NCBI RefSeq assembly: GCF_019972315.1
Contig: NZ_BLIZ01000001.1
Location: 2,517,521 to 2,581,520 of the forward strand
Direction of reading: 5' to 3'
Source: Geobacter sp. AOG1
GTDB taxonomy: Bacteria; Desulfobacterota; Desulfuromonadia; Geobacterales; Geobacteraceae
Length of the DNA: 64,000 nucleotides
The position numbers and the translations under genes are program-made. Below the pieces are notes generated by a model that was given only the letters and a program-made list of their open reading frames with translations, was not told where the DNA came from and did no database searches. Below, piece by piece: positions 1 through 45,819 of this stretch (within the stretch, counting starts at the first letter, position 1; each line of letters begins with the position of its first letter).

Positions 1-883
1 CGGTAGCTACGGCAAATGTTGCGGAAATGGTATGATTGGCCGTTACATTGCTAAAGGTGTAATTGTAGCCACCCAGATTTGATGCCACCACTGTTCCGTC
101 AACTGTCACGCTAACCGTGTAGTAACCGATATTAGGGGTGATGGTGTACGCTTGACTTCCACCCGAGTTTACATTTGTTACGCCACTAGGGGAAATGCTG
201 CCGCCGGTGCCGGCAGTGGCGGTAACGGTAAAGGCACTGGACGTGGTTAGACTTGCAAAGGTAGCAGTCATGGTGTGGTTGGCGGTGATGTTGGAGAAGG
301 TATAGCTGGTGACTGCACCAACAGAGGTCCCATCAATCGTCACGTTAGCAATACTGTAACCGGAGCTAGGTGTTATGGAGAATGCTTGGGTTGCACCCTG
401 GGTGACCGTGACGGAGGTGATAGTGGATGTTCCGCTGGTGGCGGTGCTTGTCGTTATGCTACCAACCGGTGATATCGTACCCCCAGCGCCGGCAGTTGCC
501 GTCAGGGAGTAGGTGAAAGGAAGTGTCTTGCTAACCTCGTTGGAGTACCCACTCGTATTGCCAGCAGCGTCATAATCTACAGCGGCAAAATAATAGGTTG
601 AACCATCCGAGAGATTATTTACGGTATACGAGGTTACATTTCCCACGTCGATGGTCTGGGTATAGGTGCCGGAGGCATTTCCCATCGCGAGTTTGTAGCC
701 ACTGACACCCGTAAAGGGGGTCCCGTCGGCATTGACTGGCGGATTCCATGTCAGTGTCGTCTGAGCGGCACGGGCATAGGTTGATGCGAGGTGGATCACC
801 ATGATAGTCATTAACACCATTATGACTAATGAGCGATAGAAGTAATGTTCGAACTTATTTTGTGTCAGGCAGAGAGTTTTCAC
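1..883 (-). CDS. Secreted fibronectin-III / InlB-B-repeat protein (3' end outside window)
   Basis: The frame starts with GTG at 883-881, 8 nt after GGAGGT (892-897 region), and stays open to the window edge, so the C-terminus is missing. A hydrophobic signal segment is followed by a fibronectin type III domain beginning at an AAQTTLTW motif, then two complete copies of the divergent InlB B-repeat type (motifs TATAGAGGTISP and TATAGTGGSISP, each ending in NHT-TATF-like text). The FN3 part is about 70% identical by eye to that of the neighbour at 1417-2310, so the two are paralogues. Export to the surface or periplasm is inferred. The leader carries two riboswitches, making this a cyclic-dinucleotide-controlled gene. 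No catalytic domain is visible; adhesion or matrix binding is only a guess. Confidence 0.85.
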   Translation of the reverse strand, partial: MKTLCLTQNKFEHYFYRSLVIMVLMTIMVIHLASTYARAAQTTLTWNPPVNADGTPFTGVSGYKLAMGNASGTYTQTIDVGNVTSYTVNNLSDGSTYYFAAVDYDAAGNTSGYSNEVSKTLPFTYSLTATAGAGGTISPVGSITTSTATSGTSTITSVTVTQGATQAFSITPSSGYSIANVTIDGTSVGAVTSYTFSNITANHTMTATFASLTTSSAFTVTATAGTGGSISPSGVTNVNSGGSQAYTITPNIGYYTVSVTVDGTVVASNLGGYNYTFSNVTANHTISATFAVAT

Positions 884-888
884 GATTT

Positions 889-947
889 AGTACCTCCATG
901 TTTGGGTTATTCGCCAAAACGAAATCAGCCCATTCGTATGAGGTACT
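889..947 (-). promoter_or_regulatory. Anti-Shine-Dalgarno pairing between riboswitch and GTG start
   Basis: On the minus strand AGTACCTC (947-940) is perfectly complementary over 8 nt to GAGGTACT (896-889), which contains the Shine-Dalgarno sequence of the FN3 gene. The anti-SD lies only 9 nt downstream of the c-di-GMP-type aptamer (956-1048). This is the layout of a translational expression platform. No U-tract terminator is seen after this aptamer, unlike the other three copies. Direction of control (on or off) is not decided by the sequence. Confidence 0.55.
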
Positions 948-955
948 GAATCTTC

Positions 956-1048
956 GCTTGGCATCCCTGCTGCCATATCCCGTTGTGCGGAGGACTTAGG
1001 CCAGCGGCTTTGCGTCCCGTCCTTTCGGACGGTTTGCCCTTTTCAAGC
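956..1048 (-). ncRNA. GEMM-I riboswitch aptamer, c-di-GMP type (copy 1)
   Basis: The minus strand shows the GEMM-I hallmarks in order: P1 strand GCTTG, the conserved GGGCAAACC, a P2 hairpin closed by a GAAA tetraloop, GGGACGCAAAGCC, a P3 arm with the tetraloop-receptor-like GGCCTAAGTCC, and the 3' element GGCAGCAGGGATGCC followed by P1 strand CAAGC. The ligand-discriminating position (Vc2 G20) is G (plus-strand C1038), so c-di-GMP is the expected ligand. It sits nearest the FN3 gene ending at position 1 and directly downstream of a cGAMP-type aptamer in the same leader. Confidence 0.9.
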
Positions 1049-1129
1049 TAGTGCGTGCTTCCTGTTTTTCACCTCTCTTCTTTATTGTTAATCAATCGGT
1101 TAGTGGCTGTATTTGCAAAATTAAGACAC

Positions 1130-1241
1130 AAAAAAGCCGGGGGCAAAATATCTATGAAGGATATTTCGGCGACCCGGCTGTCTCGGTGAGACCCTTAGGC
1201 TTTCCGTCCCACCCTTGCGGATGGTTTAGTATTATCGTGTA
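1130..1241 (-). ncRNA. GEMM-Ib riboswitch, 3',3'-cGAMP type, with terminator (copy 2)
   Basis: On the minus strand, ACTAAACC, a GCAA-capped P2, GGGACGGAAAGCC, CCTAAGGGTCTC and GACAGCCGGGTCGCCG match the Geobacter GEMM-Ib family very closely. The discriminator is A (plus T1230), the base that shifts specificity from c-di-GMP to 3',3'-cGAMP. The aptamer's AGCCGGG (1179-1173) can instead pair with CCCGGCT (1141-1135), followed by a U run (1135-1130), forming an intrinsic terminator. Because terminator and aptamer share this strand, ligand binding should block termination (ON switch; inference from family behaviour). Transcription then runs into copy 1. Confidence 0.92.
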
Positions 1242-1294: not shown

Positions 1295-1310
1295 TGTGAC
1301 CCTTATCACA
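1295..1310. promoter_or_regulatory. CRP-type operator, perfect TGTGA-N6-TCACA (site A)
   Basis: TGTGACCCTTATCACA is an exact match to the E. coli CRP core consensus. Its centre is about 61 nt upstream of the copy 2 aptamer, the same distance as site B (2526-2541) from copy 3. On the minus strand, a TATACT (1267-1262) further downstream could be a -10 element. The likely binder is the CRP-family protein encoded at 2807-3529, whose recognition helix keeps the contacts that read TGTGA. Confidence 0.75.
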
Positions 1311-2806: not shown

Positions 2807-3529
2807 TTACAAGCACTGTAATTTGTTGAAGAAATTAGTTTTGACGAGGATGTTCTTGTTGGTGAGGATTTCAATTTCTCCCTCGCTGGTGAGTTTTCCG
2901 AGCAGACGGGTTGCTGTTTCGCGGGATACTGAGGCATAATCGGCAATTTGTTTGTGAGTCAGTTTCAGGGAGATCATTACTCCTCTCTGTTCTTTGATTC
3001 CATAAAGTCTTGCCATGCTATTAAGGACTTCCCTGAGCCGTTGTTCAGCATTTGCAAAGCTCATGGCCTTGAGCATCAGAAGCGATTCCCTGAATCTTGC
3101 ACAAAGCATGGTAATAATATTCAAAAGAACATTGTTGTTTTTCAACATGAGTTTTTCAAAGTCCTGTTTTGCGAGAAGACCTATTACCGTGTCTTCCATG
3201 GCAATAACCGATGCTGGAGCGGTCTTGCCGTCAAGAAGACCCATTTCGCCAAAAAAATCACCCCTTTTATGGATGGCCAGTATCCGCTCCTTGCCGTCTT
3301 CGCTCTGATGAACGGCCCGTACCTTGCCGGAATAAACGACATACATGAAGTTAGGGGTGTCTTCTTCAAACAGCACTACCTGGTTTTTGCAAATGCGCTT
3401 GGAAACAAGGAGTTTTTCAATCTCAGCAAGTTCGTTTTTGTTCATACAGGAAAAAAAAGGTATGTTTTTGAGCACATCCCCGGAGCGTGCTTTTGGTCTA
3501 ACATTGAAGGGTTGCACGTAAGCGCTCAT
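2807..3529 (-). CDS. CRP/FNR-family transcriptional regulator
   Basis: ATG at 3529 is preferred over an in-frame TTG at 3535 because AGGGAGG lies 9 nt ahead of it. The 240-residue protein has an N-terminal cyclic-nucleotide-type beta barrel (about 25-120) and a C-terminal winged helix (about 160-235). The recognition helix reads SRETATR (202-208), keeping the Arg, Glu and Arg that in E. coli CRP contact TGTGA. In the pocket (95-109, GEMGLLDGKTAPAS) the usual Arg-Ser that hold the cAMP phosphate are replaced, so classical cAMP binding is doubtful. There is no FNR-type cysteine cluster. It is followed by riboswitches and two perfect TGTGA-N6-TCACA sites, its probable targets. Confidence 0.85.
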   Translation of the reverse strand: MSAYVQPFNVRPKARSGDVLKNIPFFSCMNKNELAEIEKLLVSKRICKNQVVLFEEDTPNFMYVVYSGKVRAVHQSEDGKERILAIHKRGDFFGEMGLLDGKTAPASVIAMEDTVIGLLAKQDFEKLMLKNNNVLLNIITMLCARFRESLLMLKAMSFANAEQRLREVLNSMARLYGIKEQRGVMISLKLTHKQIADYASVSRETATRLLGKLTSEGEIEILTNKNILVKTNFFNKLQCL

Positions 3530-3557
3530 ATTCAAGTCCCTCCCTCAGTATAAGGCA

Positions 3558-3678: not shown

Positions 3679-4869
3679 ATGTCCCAGGAACTCTGCGAAA
3701 TGTCCCTGCGACAGACACAGGAGTTGCTGAGACTTACCGACGAAGCTTTGCAGGAAATCTGCTGCAAGCGCTTTACGGGTGAGGAGCTTTCTGTCAAGGC
3801 ACTCCAAATGGTTCTGAAAGGGAAGGGGCGGCGAGGTCCCACCAGTGTTTTCGTTGCTTTTAACGGGGAAGTCGATGGTTTGTTGCGCGGCCGAGTTTTT
3901 CATCTCCATGATGGGGAAATCGTGGAGCGTTCGGAAGAGATTGCCGTCAATACTTTAATCGGTTACGCCAATTTTGTCGGCATCGCCGGAGCACATGCCG
4001 ATGTAGTTGTTTCCAATTGGAGCGACAGTTGTGAGTCGGTTGAAAAATACCAGGAATTTTTCCCTACGGTGGTAAAGGAGGTTGTTGGTTATGCGATCAG
4101 GAACTTCGTTACCTACCGGATAAGCGGCGAGACTCCTGGTGCCATAATCGCTTTCAATTATCCAGGGCGTGCCACCGATTATGATGCAGATGTTCTTCGT
4201 GGACTTGCGGTAGTCATCGGTTCCGTATTTACCATATCCGACCAGATGAGGGAGACCGAAAAGGCTTTCATCTATACCATCGAGGCATTGGCCAGGGCCT
4301 GCGAGGCAGCTGAAGAGGATACCGGCAAGCACATTCTTAGGGTTAACCGCTATGCCGGTGCACTGGCGGCAAATATGGGGCTTCCTGCCGACTATGTTGA
4401 AGTTATAACCTATTCGGCACAGATGCACGATGTGGGCAAAATAAAAGTACCCGCGGCTATCCTTCTCAAGGAAGGACCTTTGGACGAACGGGAGTTGGGC
4501 GTCATCAGGATGCACCCGGTCTACGGAGAACAGATACTGGGAGATTCACCACGTTTGCGGATTGCACGGGAGATCGCTCTTTCCCATCATGAGAACTGGG
4601 ATGGGAGCGGTTATCCAAACGGCTTGCGAGGAGAAGACATTCCTTTGTCGGGACGCATTGTAAAACTGGCTGATGTCTATGACGCGCTTCGGTCACGACG
4701 GAGTTACAAGCCACCCCTGTGCCATGCCGAGGCGATAGGCGTTTTTCGTGACGGAGACCATCGTATCGATCCCAGGAACCACTTCGATCCGAACCTGTTG
4801 ACGATATTTTTTAAAATAGAGCATATGTTTGAACATATTTACGATAGCTTTGCGGGCGAAAATCTTTAA
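3679..4869 (+). CDS. HD-GYP domain cyclic-dinucleotide phosphodiesterase
   Basis: ATG at 3679 follows GAGAGGAG. The 396-residue protein has an N-terminal region of about 190 residues that resembles a GAF-like sensor and a C-terminal HD-GYP domain. Visible catalytic motifs are the HD pair in MHDVGK (249-254) and HHENWDGSGYP (303-313), with the GYP intact. HD-GYP enzymes hydrolyse c-di-GMP, and some in Vibrio and Myxococcus hydrolyse 3',3'-cGAMP. Its position beside cGAMP- and c-di-GMP-type riboswitches makes either substrate plausible; sequence alone does not decide. No membrane segment is seen, so it is probably cytosolic. Confidence 0.88.
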   Translation: MSQELCEMSLRQTQELLRLTDEALQEICCKRFTGEELSVKALQMVLKGKGRRGPTSVFVAFNGEVDGLLRGRVFHLHDGEIVERSEEIAVNTLIGYANFVGIAGAHADVVVSNWSDSCESVEKYQEFFPTVVKEVVGYAIRNFVTYRISGETPGAIIAFNYPGRATDYDADVLRGLAVVIGSVFTISDQMRETEKAFIYTIEALARACEAAEEDTGKHILRVNRYAGALAANMGLPADYVEVITYSAQMHDVGKIKVPAAILLKEGPLDERELGVIRMHPVYGEQILGDSPRLRIAREIALSHHENWDGSGYPNGLRGEDIPLSGRIVKLADVYDALRSRRSYKPPLCHAEAIGVFRDGDHRIDPRNHFDPNLLTIFFKIEHMFEHIYDSFAGENL

Positions 4870-44427: not shown

Positions 44428-45819
44428 ATGGAAAGGATTCTCGTCGTAGAGGATGACGGTTTTTTCCGGGAAGTATTTTCCGATCTGCTTCGCGAAGAAG
44501 GCTATGATGTGGACGTTGCGTCGTCCGGTGAGGAGGCGCTGGAAAAACTTGAGCAGTGTTATTATCACGTGGTTGTGACCGACCTTGTCATGAAGGATGT
44601 CTCGGGCCTCGATATCCTGTCGAGGGTCAAACAAAAGGATCCTGCCATCGAAGTGATCATGGTCACCGGTCACGGCAACCTGGAGACTGCGGTGTACGCC
44701 TTGAAAAACGGTGCCCGCGATTATCTCGTCAAGCCGATCAATAACGAGGAATTGAAGCACTCGGTGGCTCTCTGTATCGAACAGCGACGTCTCCTGGATG
44801 AAAACCACGAGTTGAAAGAGCTCGTGAACCTGTTCCAGGTCAGTCAGACCATTGCCAACTGTCTCGACATGGAACGCCTCCATTCGCTTGTTCTCGATGC
44901 CCTGGCGAAGGAGATCGGCCTTTCGCGCGGGGTGGCCTATTTCCTCGAAGGTTCCGACCTTCTGGAAATGAAAGAGGTGAGGGGGTTTGACGAAGCAACC
45001 GGCTCCCTGCTGGGTGAAACTGCCCTGGCTAATTTTGATATACACGACAATAAGGCCGACAATTTCATCCGTCTCCACAACTTCGTGCCTGCGGGGATGC
45101 TACCCGACAACAGCACGGCCGACGGGGTGAACGATGCGATGATTCTGTCGCTCCGGTTCAAGAACATGTTGCAGGGTGCCATCATATTTTTCAATGAAGC
45201 CGGATGTGATTTCCCGAGTGTCATCAATTCTAAAAACCTCAATTTTCTCATAGATCAAGCATCGCTGGCTTTTGAAAACGCGGCCCGCTTTACCAGCGCG
45301 AAAAATCTGCTTTACATTGACGAACTGACCGGCCTTTTCAACTACCGCTACCTGGAAATTGCCTTGGAGAGAGAGCTTAAGCGTGCCGAACGTTACGGGT
45401 CGGCTCTGTCGGTCTTGTTTCTCGACCTCGATCTGTTCAAGAATGTCAATGACTGTCATGGCCATTTGGTCGGGAGTAAGGTGCTTAAGGAAGTCGGAAC
45501 CCTTCTCAAGAAGTCGGTCCGCGAAGTGGATTCCGTCATGCGCTATGGTGGTGACGAGTATACCGTGATATTGGTGGAAACAGGGGTGGGGGGAGCTGCC
45601 ACCGTTGCCGAACGTATCCGTCGCTCCATAGAGGCCCACGATTTTCTTGCCAATGAGGGATATACCATCAAGCTTACTGCCAGTCTCGGTTATGCCTGTT
45701 TCCCGGACGATGCGAAAACCAAGACCGAACTGCTGGAACTGGCGGACCGAGCCATGTATCGGGGGAAGTCCAGCGGAAAGAACATGGTATTCTATCTCTC
45801 TCCGCGCACAGCGGAATAG
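44428..45819 (+). CDS. gacA: REC-GAF-GGDEF protein of the Hypr type, predicted 3',3'-cGAMP synthase
   Basis: The 463-residue protein has a receiver domain (about 3-118, phosphoacceptor Asp52 in VVVTDLVMKD), a GAF-like domain (about 135-285) and a GGDEF domain (about 293-460). The signature is GGDEY (374-378) with an RxxD I-site at 365-368. The base-recognition residue, Asp in ordinary diguanylate cyclases (GHxxGD), is Ser350 (GHLVGS). This change defines hybrid promiscuous (Hypr) GGDEF enzymes such as GacA of G. sulfurreducens, which make 3',3'-cGAMP as well as c-di-GMP. The gene precedes hisS, as I recall for gacA. The cGAMP-type riboswitches at 1.1-2.7 kb are likely readers of its product. 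CAGGAGAG precedes the ATG. Confidence 0.88.
   Translation: MERILVVEDDGFFREVFSDLLREEGYDVDVASSGEEALEKLEQCYYHVVVTDLVMKDVSGLDILSRVKQKDPAIEVIMVTGHGNLETAVYALKNGARDYLVKPINNEELKHSVALCIEQRRLLDENHELKELVNLFQVSQTIANCLDMERLHSLVLDALAKEIGLSRGVAYFLEGSDLLEMKEVRGFDEATGSLLGETALANFDIHDNKADNFIRLHNFVPAGMLPDNSTADGVNDAMILSLRFKNMLQGAIIFFNEAGCDFPSVINSKNLNFLIDQASLAFENAARFTSAKNLLYIDELTGLFNYRYLEIALERELKRAERYGSALSVLFLDLDLFKNVNDCHGHLVGSKVLKEVGTLLKKSVREVDSVMRYGGDEYTVILVETGVGGAATVAERIRRSIEAHDFLANEGYTIKLTASLGYACFPDDAKTKTELLELADRAMYRGKSSGKNMVFYLSPRTAE

Follow-up and report, generated by a model that had tools for sequence, protein, structure and literature searches.

The leader of a gene for a secreted FN3 protein (minus strand, start at 883) contains two GEMM-I aptamers in series, the first of the A-type and the second of the G-type. 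It was found in the window, i.e. the whole stretch of 64,000 nucleotides that was analysed. Judged from the sequence, the leader is probably a single-transcript RNA device with two inputs and the logic cGAMP AND NOT c-di-GMP (a NOT-IMPLY gate), in which the two ligands, the opposite signs of their responses and the co-transcription of both aptamers are predicted. Production of the FN3 protein would then call for cGAMP together with absent or low c-di-GMP. The relevant features of the window are:

1295..1310, minus strand: Crp/Fnr-like palindrome TGTGATAAGGGTCACA, 0 mismatches, 80 nt 5' of the first aptamer core
1165..1240, minus strand: first GEMM-I aptamer, type Ib, predicted cGAMP sensor (RF01051 match 1240-1165, 48.6 bits, E 1.9e-6; A at 1230)
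1130..1179, minus strand: intrinsic terminator and U-tract of the first riboswitch (-20.1 kcal/mol; 5' arm AGCCGGGTCGCCGAA)
957..1048, minus strand: second GEMM-I aptamer, type Ia, predicted c-di-GMP sensor (RF01051 match 1048-957, 80.1 bits, E 3.9e-14; G at 1038)
956..1048, minus strand: P1 helix of the second aptamer, GCTTG (1048-1044) with CAAGC (960-956), with covariation (UA, CG, UG, GC)
913..962, minus strand: antisequestor hairpin, aptamer 3' tail GCCAAGCGAAG and anti-SD with GGGCTGATTTCGTTTTGGC; excludes P1 (z -2.6 against shuffles, this leader)
889..947, minus strand: sequestor hairpin that masks the SD; AGTACCTC (anti-SD, 947-940) paired with GAGGTACT (896-889)
893..897, minus strand: Shine-Dalgarno sequence GGAGG, seen in the sequence
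1..883, minus strand: regulated gene, GTG start at 883, extending past the window; encodes a secreted protein carrying FN3 and InlB-like B repeats
2807..3535, minus strand: gene of a Crp-family regulator beside the riboswitch cluster
44428..45819, plus strand: predicted GacA-type cGAMP synthase, response receiver and GGDEF domains, Ser at the Hypr position, GHLVGS

Both aptamers scored above the gathering score of RF01051 (35 bits) in cmscan. They differ in the discriminating base (model position 11, corresponding to position 20 in Vc2 numbering), which is A in the first aptamer (window position 1230; T on the plus strand) and G in the second (1038; C on the plus strand). A preliminary description of this DNA had placed an A-type and then a G-type GEMM aptamer in one leader, with a terminator behind the first and an anti-SD behind the second. 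Its coordinates and bases were confirmed by cmscan and the alignment, and both platform elements were found, the terminator at 1179-1130 and an anti-SD complementary to the Shine-Dalgarno sequence (SD) of the gene. The gap of 116 nt between the aptamers holds no gene; the leader comprises two complete riboswitches less than 300 nt apart, each with its own expression platform, a terminator for the first and a sequestor for the second. Counted from the alignment, only 2 of the 19 GEMM-I aptamers in this genome are of the G-type. The regulated protein begins with a hydrophobic, signal-like segment, and the FN3 and InlB-like repeat matches in the part of the gene inside the window lie slightly below the Pfam cut-off. 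In the stored genome, masked bases (N) near L103 4376-4530, approximately at the first base of the window, split the reading frame of this FN3 gene.

The conservation of the arrangement was assessed with a covariance model (R2) built from eight Ia aptamers and the Rfam structure, which was run against 141 genomes from the order. An earlier model (R1, RNAalifold with all 44 aptamers) was poor, and a DNA pattern designed to match mixed pairs allowed too narrow a gap range and retrieved only G001. The R2 search delimited a sharply separated subfamily of 12 matches with at least 86 bits, followed by a single match at 72.6 bits and all others below 65 bits. One or two A-type aptamers lie directly 5' of 10 of the 12 subfamily matches, in ten genomes of seven genera: G000, G001, G002, G006, G009 (Geomesophilobacter sediminis), G036, G041, G045, G118 (an Oryzomonas MAG) and G122. 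The mixed leaders are thus either A-G pairs or triplets with two A-type aptamers first; a search for adjacent GEMM matches with different discriminators in other Geobacteraceae had been proposed in the preliminary description. The subfamily match in G048 is not preceded by an A-type aptamer. Translations were inspected for all subfamily matches, and a gene for a secreted FN3-type protein follows in each case. Within the genus, the neighbourhood with four aptamers is shared by three of the four genomes. Beyond the order, in Deltaproteobacteria, no A-type aptamer preceding a G-type aptamer on the same strand was seen at other loci among the matches listed; the G-type aptamer is common there on its own. 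The remaining subfamily match is an additional G-type copy in G036 (L092 502-592, G036:C70), which has no A-type partner and directly follows sequence that resembles the end of an FG-GAP/FN3 gene, possibly as a translational switch inside an operon.

The first element is predicted to be a transcriptional ON switch for cGAMP. Its discriminator A lies in the context ATACTAAACC, and this base assigns the aptamer to GEMM-Ib. The mixed leaders contain 13 Ib copies, and in every one the terminator uses the 3' strand of its aptamer as 5' arm, either as AGCCGGGTCGCCGAA or as the near-identical AGCCGGGTTGCCGAA, and therefore aptamer and terminator are mutually exclusive. Such an overlap is the architecture of an ON switch. 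Without cGAMP, the terminator would capture the shared strand and transcription would stop; cGAMP would keep this strand inside the aptamer, allowing the RNA polymerase to read on. The terminator is bulged (1179-1130) and was missed by a simple terminator scan. The same principle is realized in the pilM riboswitch of G. metallireducens, a measured cGAMP ON switch in which the terminator captures an aptamer strand, so that the two structures exclude each other (PMC9262584). In G. sulfurreducens, a mutant in the cGAMP synthase gene gacA showed lower expression of genes behind GEMM-Ib switches (PMC6456294). The host of the present leader is predicted to encode a cGAMP synthase as well: the GacA-type gene in the window codes for a Hypr GGDEF protein with 6d9m as its closest PDB match (E 1.8e-75).

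The second aptamer combines the discriminator G with an intact GAAA loop and a CCTAA...TATGG receptor sequence, as expected for the G-type. Three helices compete at its 3' side, namely P1, the sequestor and the antisequestor. P1 covaries across the Ia subfamily, and every helix is retained in the Ia aptamers, 97% of the cells being paired. The sequestor, in which the anti-SD pairs with the SD, is strongly supported (mean z -1.8 in 70 related leaders); elsewhere it is formed by other sequences, for example ACTCCTTC/GAAGGAGT in G006 and TTCTCCCTT/AAGGGAGAA in L079. The antisequestor consists of the aptamer tail and the anti-SD paired with the segment just 5' of the SD and is incompatible with P1. 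In 78 related leaders this hairpin was more stable than in shuffled controls (mean z -1.48), and 9.0 tail pairs were expected versus 6.0 in the shuffles, with a Wilcoxon value of 1.4e-10 that is optimistic because the leader sequences are related. A duplex test of the tail alone was uninformative (mean z -0.25), since GC-rich tails also pair well with shuffled sequences, and the hairpin test was used in its place. For transcripts ending ahead of the SD, folds lacking P1 were favoured by 4.5-10 kcal/mol in each of the 12 leaders, mostly in the form of the antisequestor; compared per leader with shuffled controls, the energy differences showed a weak gain only (mean z 0.78). In both L079 and L242, the 5' strand of P1 (CTGTTT) recurs unchanged in the downstream strand, which corresponds to a simple strand exchange. 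The ON and OFF states of the full-length L079 leader are only 2.5 kcal/mol apart. In the ligand-free fold of the full-length leader described here, the state with hidden SD is favoured over the SD-free state by approximately 6 kcal/mol. This suggests that switching occurs during transcription or that translation is poor by default.

As the antisequestor is built from the 3' tail of the aptamer, c-di-GMP is predicted to turn translation off. In the proposed mechanism, the tail and the anti-SD of the G-type element would pair with the pre-SD segment in the absence of c-di-GMP, leaving the SD free. The ligand is expected to stabilize P1; with the tail locked in this helix, the anti-SD would be released and pair with the SD, and translation would be blocked. 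The modelled folds thus indicate that the second element should be a translational OFF switch for c-di-GMP. It resembles the Cd1 OFF switch of C. difficile, where a strand of the ligand-free aptamer is captured downstream and c-di-GMP leads to the OFF state (PMC9262584). pilM and Cd1 belong to separate genes of separate species and are both transcriptional, whereas in the leader described here both logics are combined and the second one would act on the ribosome-binding site. G-type aptamers with a sequestor and an antisequestor around the SD are also widespread as stand-alone elements in Deltaproteobacteria (L105-L183), and these are predicted to form a broad family of c-di-GMP translational OFF switches.

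A c-di-GMP response of the opposite sign would turn the leader into an AND gate, with translation switched on by c-di-GMP, e.g. through a P0 helix in which an upstream GGAGGU would bind the anti-SD upon closure of the aptamer. This helix looked promising in the genus: 8 of 12 leaders have an upstream purine tract (GAGAGGTG in this one) that is complementary to the anti-SD, each at a p of about 0.05 within the genus. The tract, however, fails to change along with the anti-SD in G009, G048, G118 and G006, and its complementarity does not exceed chance across 70 related leaders (mean z -0.05). On these grounds the P0 helix was rejected, and with the antisequestor of opposite predicted sign being supported, we consider an AND gate improbable. 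A leader peptide starting from the GTG in GAGAGGTG was likewise rejected, as its frame is lost in G002. Of the preliminary reading, according to which control of transcription is followed by control of translation and two dinucleotides are integrated, the two aptamer types and the order of the two levels are supported; the suggestion that the gene could require both signals is not, since the antisequestor predicts an OFF response to c-di-GMP.

The cGAMP AND NOT c-di-GMP reading presupposes that the two aptamers discriminate between their ligands. They would share one ligand in vivo if the G-type aptamer were promiscuous or cGAMP irrelevant, and the leader would then be a bi-mechanism or pseudo-cooperative switch. 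An A-type aptamer of Desulfobacca acetoxidans indeed gained affinity for cGAMP while losing only little of its affinity for c-di-GMP (PMC9481103). In Geobacter, on the other hand, a Ib aptamer is approximately 1200-fold selective for cGAMP, and the exchange A20G converts the Gmet_0970 aptamer to c-di-GMP (PMC6456294). With one ligand, moreover, an ON response in transcription and an OFF response in translation would cancel each other out, which makes the conserved pairing hard to explain. Going by the discriminator bases, an identical ligand for both aptamers, as in the bi-mechanism tandem class, is unlikely, and we rate this explanation somewhat below the AND gate.

Integration of the two signals further depends on a common transcript, which is likely from the sequence. 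The preliminary description had mentioned separate transcripts with a promoter between 1048 and 1130, in which case the signals would not be integrated. No promoter-like site was detected between the aptamers, albeit in a weak scan of limited sensitivity that found none 5' of the first aptamer either. The spacer from the U-tract to the second aptamer is 81 nt in this leader and up to 147 nt elsewhere, room that would favour an additional promoter, but it is reduced to only 43 and 48 nt in G118 and G006. In six mixed leaders, the Crp/Fnr-like site is found at a constant distance of 79-84 nt before the core of the first aptamer, which also speaks against a start between the aptamers; we consider separate transcripts very unlikely. 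The constant position and the nearby Crp-family gene (2807-3535) suggest that the Crp/Fnr-like site may provide a third input to the leader.

The least probable explanation regards the second aptamer as an inert remnant of an older c-di-GMP leader into which a cGAMP switch was inserted, in line with the frequent solitary Ia aptamers of other Deltaproteobacteria and a decaying Ia copy in L178; against it stand the covarying helices of the Ia aptamers, the intact Ia platforms in 10 mixed leaders and the recurrence of the arrangement with other Ia subtypes. In L178 (6713-6804, Geobacteraceae MAG D180), three Ib copies are followed by a decayed Ia aptamer that has C as discriminator and a GAAG loop and lacks P1, although its anti-SD/SD hairpin is preserved. 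Apparently, the second input can be lost.

Other tandem pairs were also typed by their discriminators, and the 20 pairs read comprised 16 A-A, two G-G and one A-G pair, with one pair half read; these counts do not represent frequencies, because the genomes were chosen in part for having mixed pairs. No G-to-A pair was seen among the pairs typed, the A-type being always 5' where both types were present. Together with pairs typed before, three A-to-G pairs contain other G-type subtypes: G041:C63 (L242), G124 (L079) and G044 (L058). L242 and L079 have the same translational platform as the leader described here; the former precedes a gene for an FN3-type protein, the latter a gene for a secreted protein. 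In L058, the aptamers lie at 1764-1846 and 1501-1596 on the minus strand, belong to other subtypes, and each is followed by a terminator-like hairpin. Recurring with other Ia subtypes, the mixed arrangement appears to have more than one origin. The leaders may represent a recurrently evolved comparator, in which one fold, split by a single base, is used with opposite signs at two levels of expression and is supplemented by the Crp/Fnr-type site as third input; we regard the chances of this wider interpretation as even.

Precedents exist for tandem GEMM-I elements, for cGAMP variants and for riboswitch gates with two ligands. Several GEMM-I aptamers per gene, as in our leader, occur in G. sulfurreducens, e.g. 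before omcAHG, GSU2885 (PMC6456294). Those tandems were described as GEMM-Ib, whereas here the last aptamer is of the G-type, has a translational platform and is predicted to respond with the opposite sign. In Desulfobacca acetoxidans, AdoCbl/c-di-GMP-I and AdoCbl/c-AMP-GMP combinations are located in separate clusters, while here both dinucleotide types share one leader (PMC9481103). The SAM-II/SAM-V bi-mechanism tandem acts first on transcription and second on translation of the same mRNA, as proposed for the present leader (PMC9481103); it senses one ligand, in contrast to the two predicted ligands with opposite predicted signs considered here. In a survey from 2022, 347 c-di-GMP-I doublets were filed as same-class pairs, and its table of logic gates contains AdoCbl/c-AMP-GMP and AdoCbl/c-di-GMP-I combinations but no c-AMP-GMP/c-di-GMP-I pair (PMC9481103). 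A survey from 2025 takes Rfam families as its groups and makes no mention of cGAMP (PMC12452182). As both aptamers are filed under one Rfam class in these surveys, pairs for two ligands can pass as homogeneous (PMC9481103, PMC12452182). No description of an A-type/G-type GEMM-I pair was found in the open-access literature searched, in agreement with the preliminary description, which knew of no described mixed pair with different platforms; the statement is provisional, the founding papers in PNAS from 2015 (Kellenberger; Nelson) being outside its scope. The new element is the combination of an A-type with a G-type aptamer, well supported in its parts and their order and predicted in its ligands and signs.

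The predicted logic of the leader agrees with the physiology of G. sulfurreducens, where growth on iron oxide particles is the domain of cGAMP and biofilm formation on electrodes that of c-di-GMP (PMC6456294). There, c-di-GMP lowers the synthesis of cGAMP, and a mutant in a c-di-GMP cyclase showed three times the signal of a cGAMP reporter (PMC6456294). The leader RNA would repeat this antagonism at the target gene. How cells separate two nearly identical signals is an open question in cyclic-dinucleotide signalling. In Geobacter, where cGAMP serves growth on mineral particles and c-di-GMP the formation of lasting biofilms, the antagonism is so far known at the level of the synthase (PMC6456294). 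If the proposed logic is true, the leader would set the cGAMP/c-di-GMP antagonism at single genes and could constitute an RNA-level lock that separates transient (cGAMP) from permanent (c-di-GMP) surface lifestyles.

The surroundings of the leader contain further elements of this kind. A neighbouring FN3/dockerin-like gene (2346-1417) is preceded by two A-type aptamers in series (2730-2655 and 2471-2396, minus strand). This gene has no G-type aptamer, and the two adjacent FN3 genes would therefore differ in their response to c-di-GMP. Another Crp/Fnr-like palindrome, at 2526-2541, is likewise located 5' of A-type aptamers. Divergent from the gene of the Crp-family regulator near the riboswitch cluster, an HD-domain gene (3679-4869, plus strand) resembles HD-GYP phosphodiesterases.
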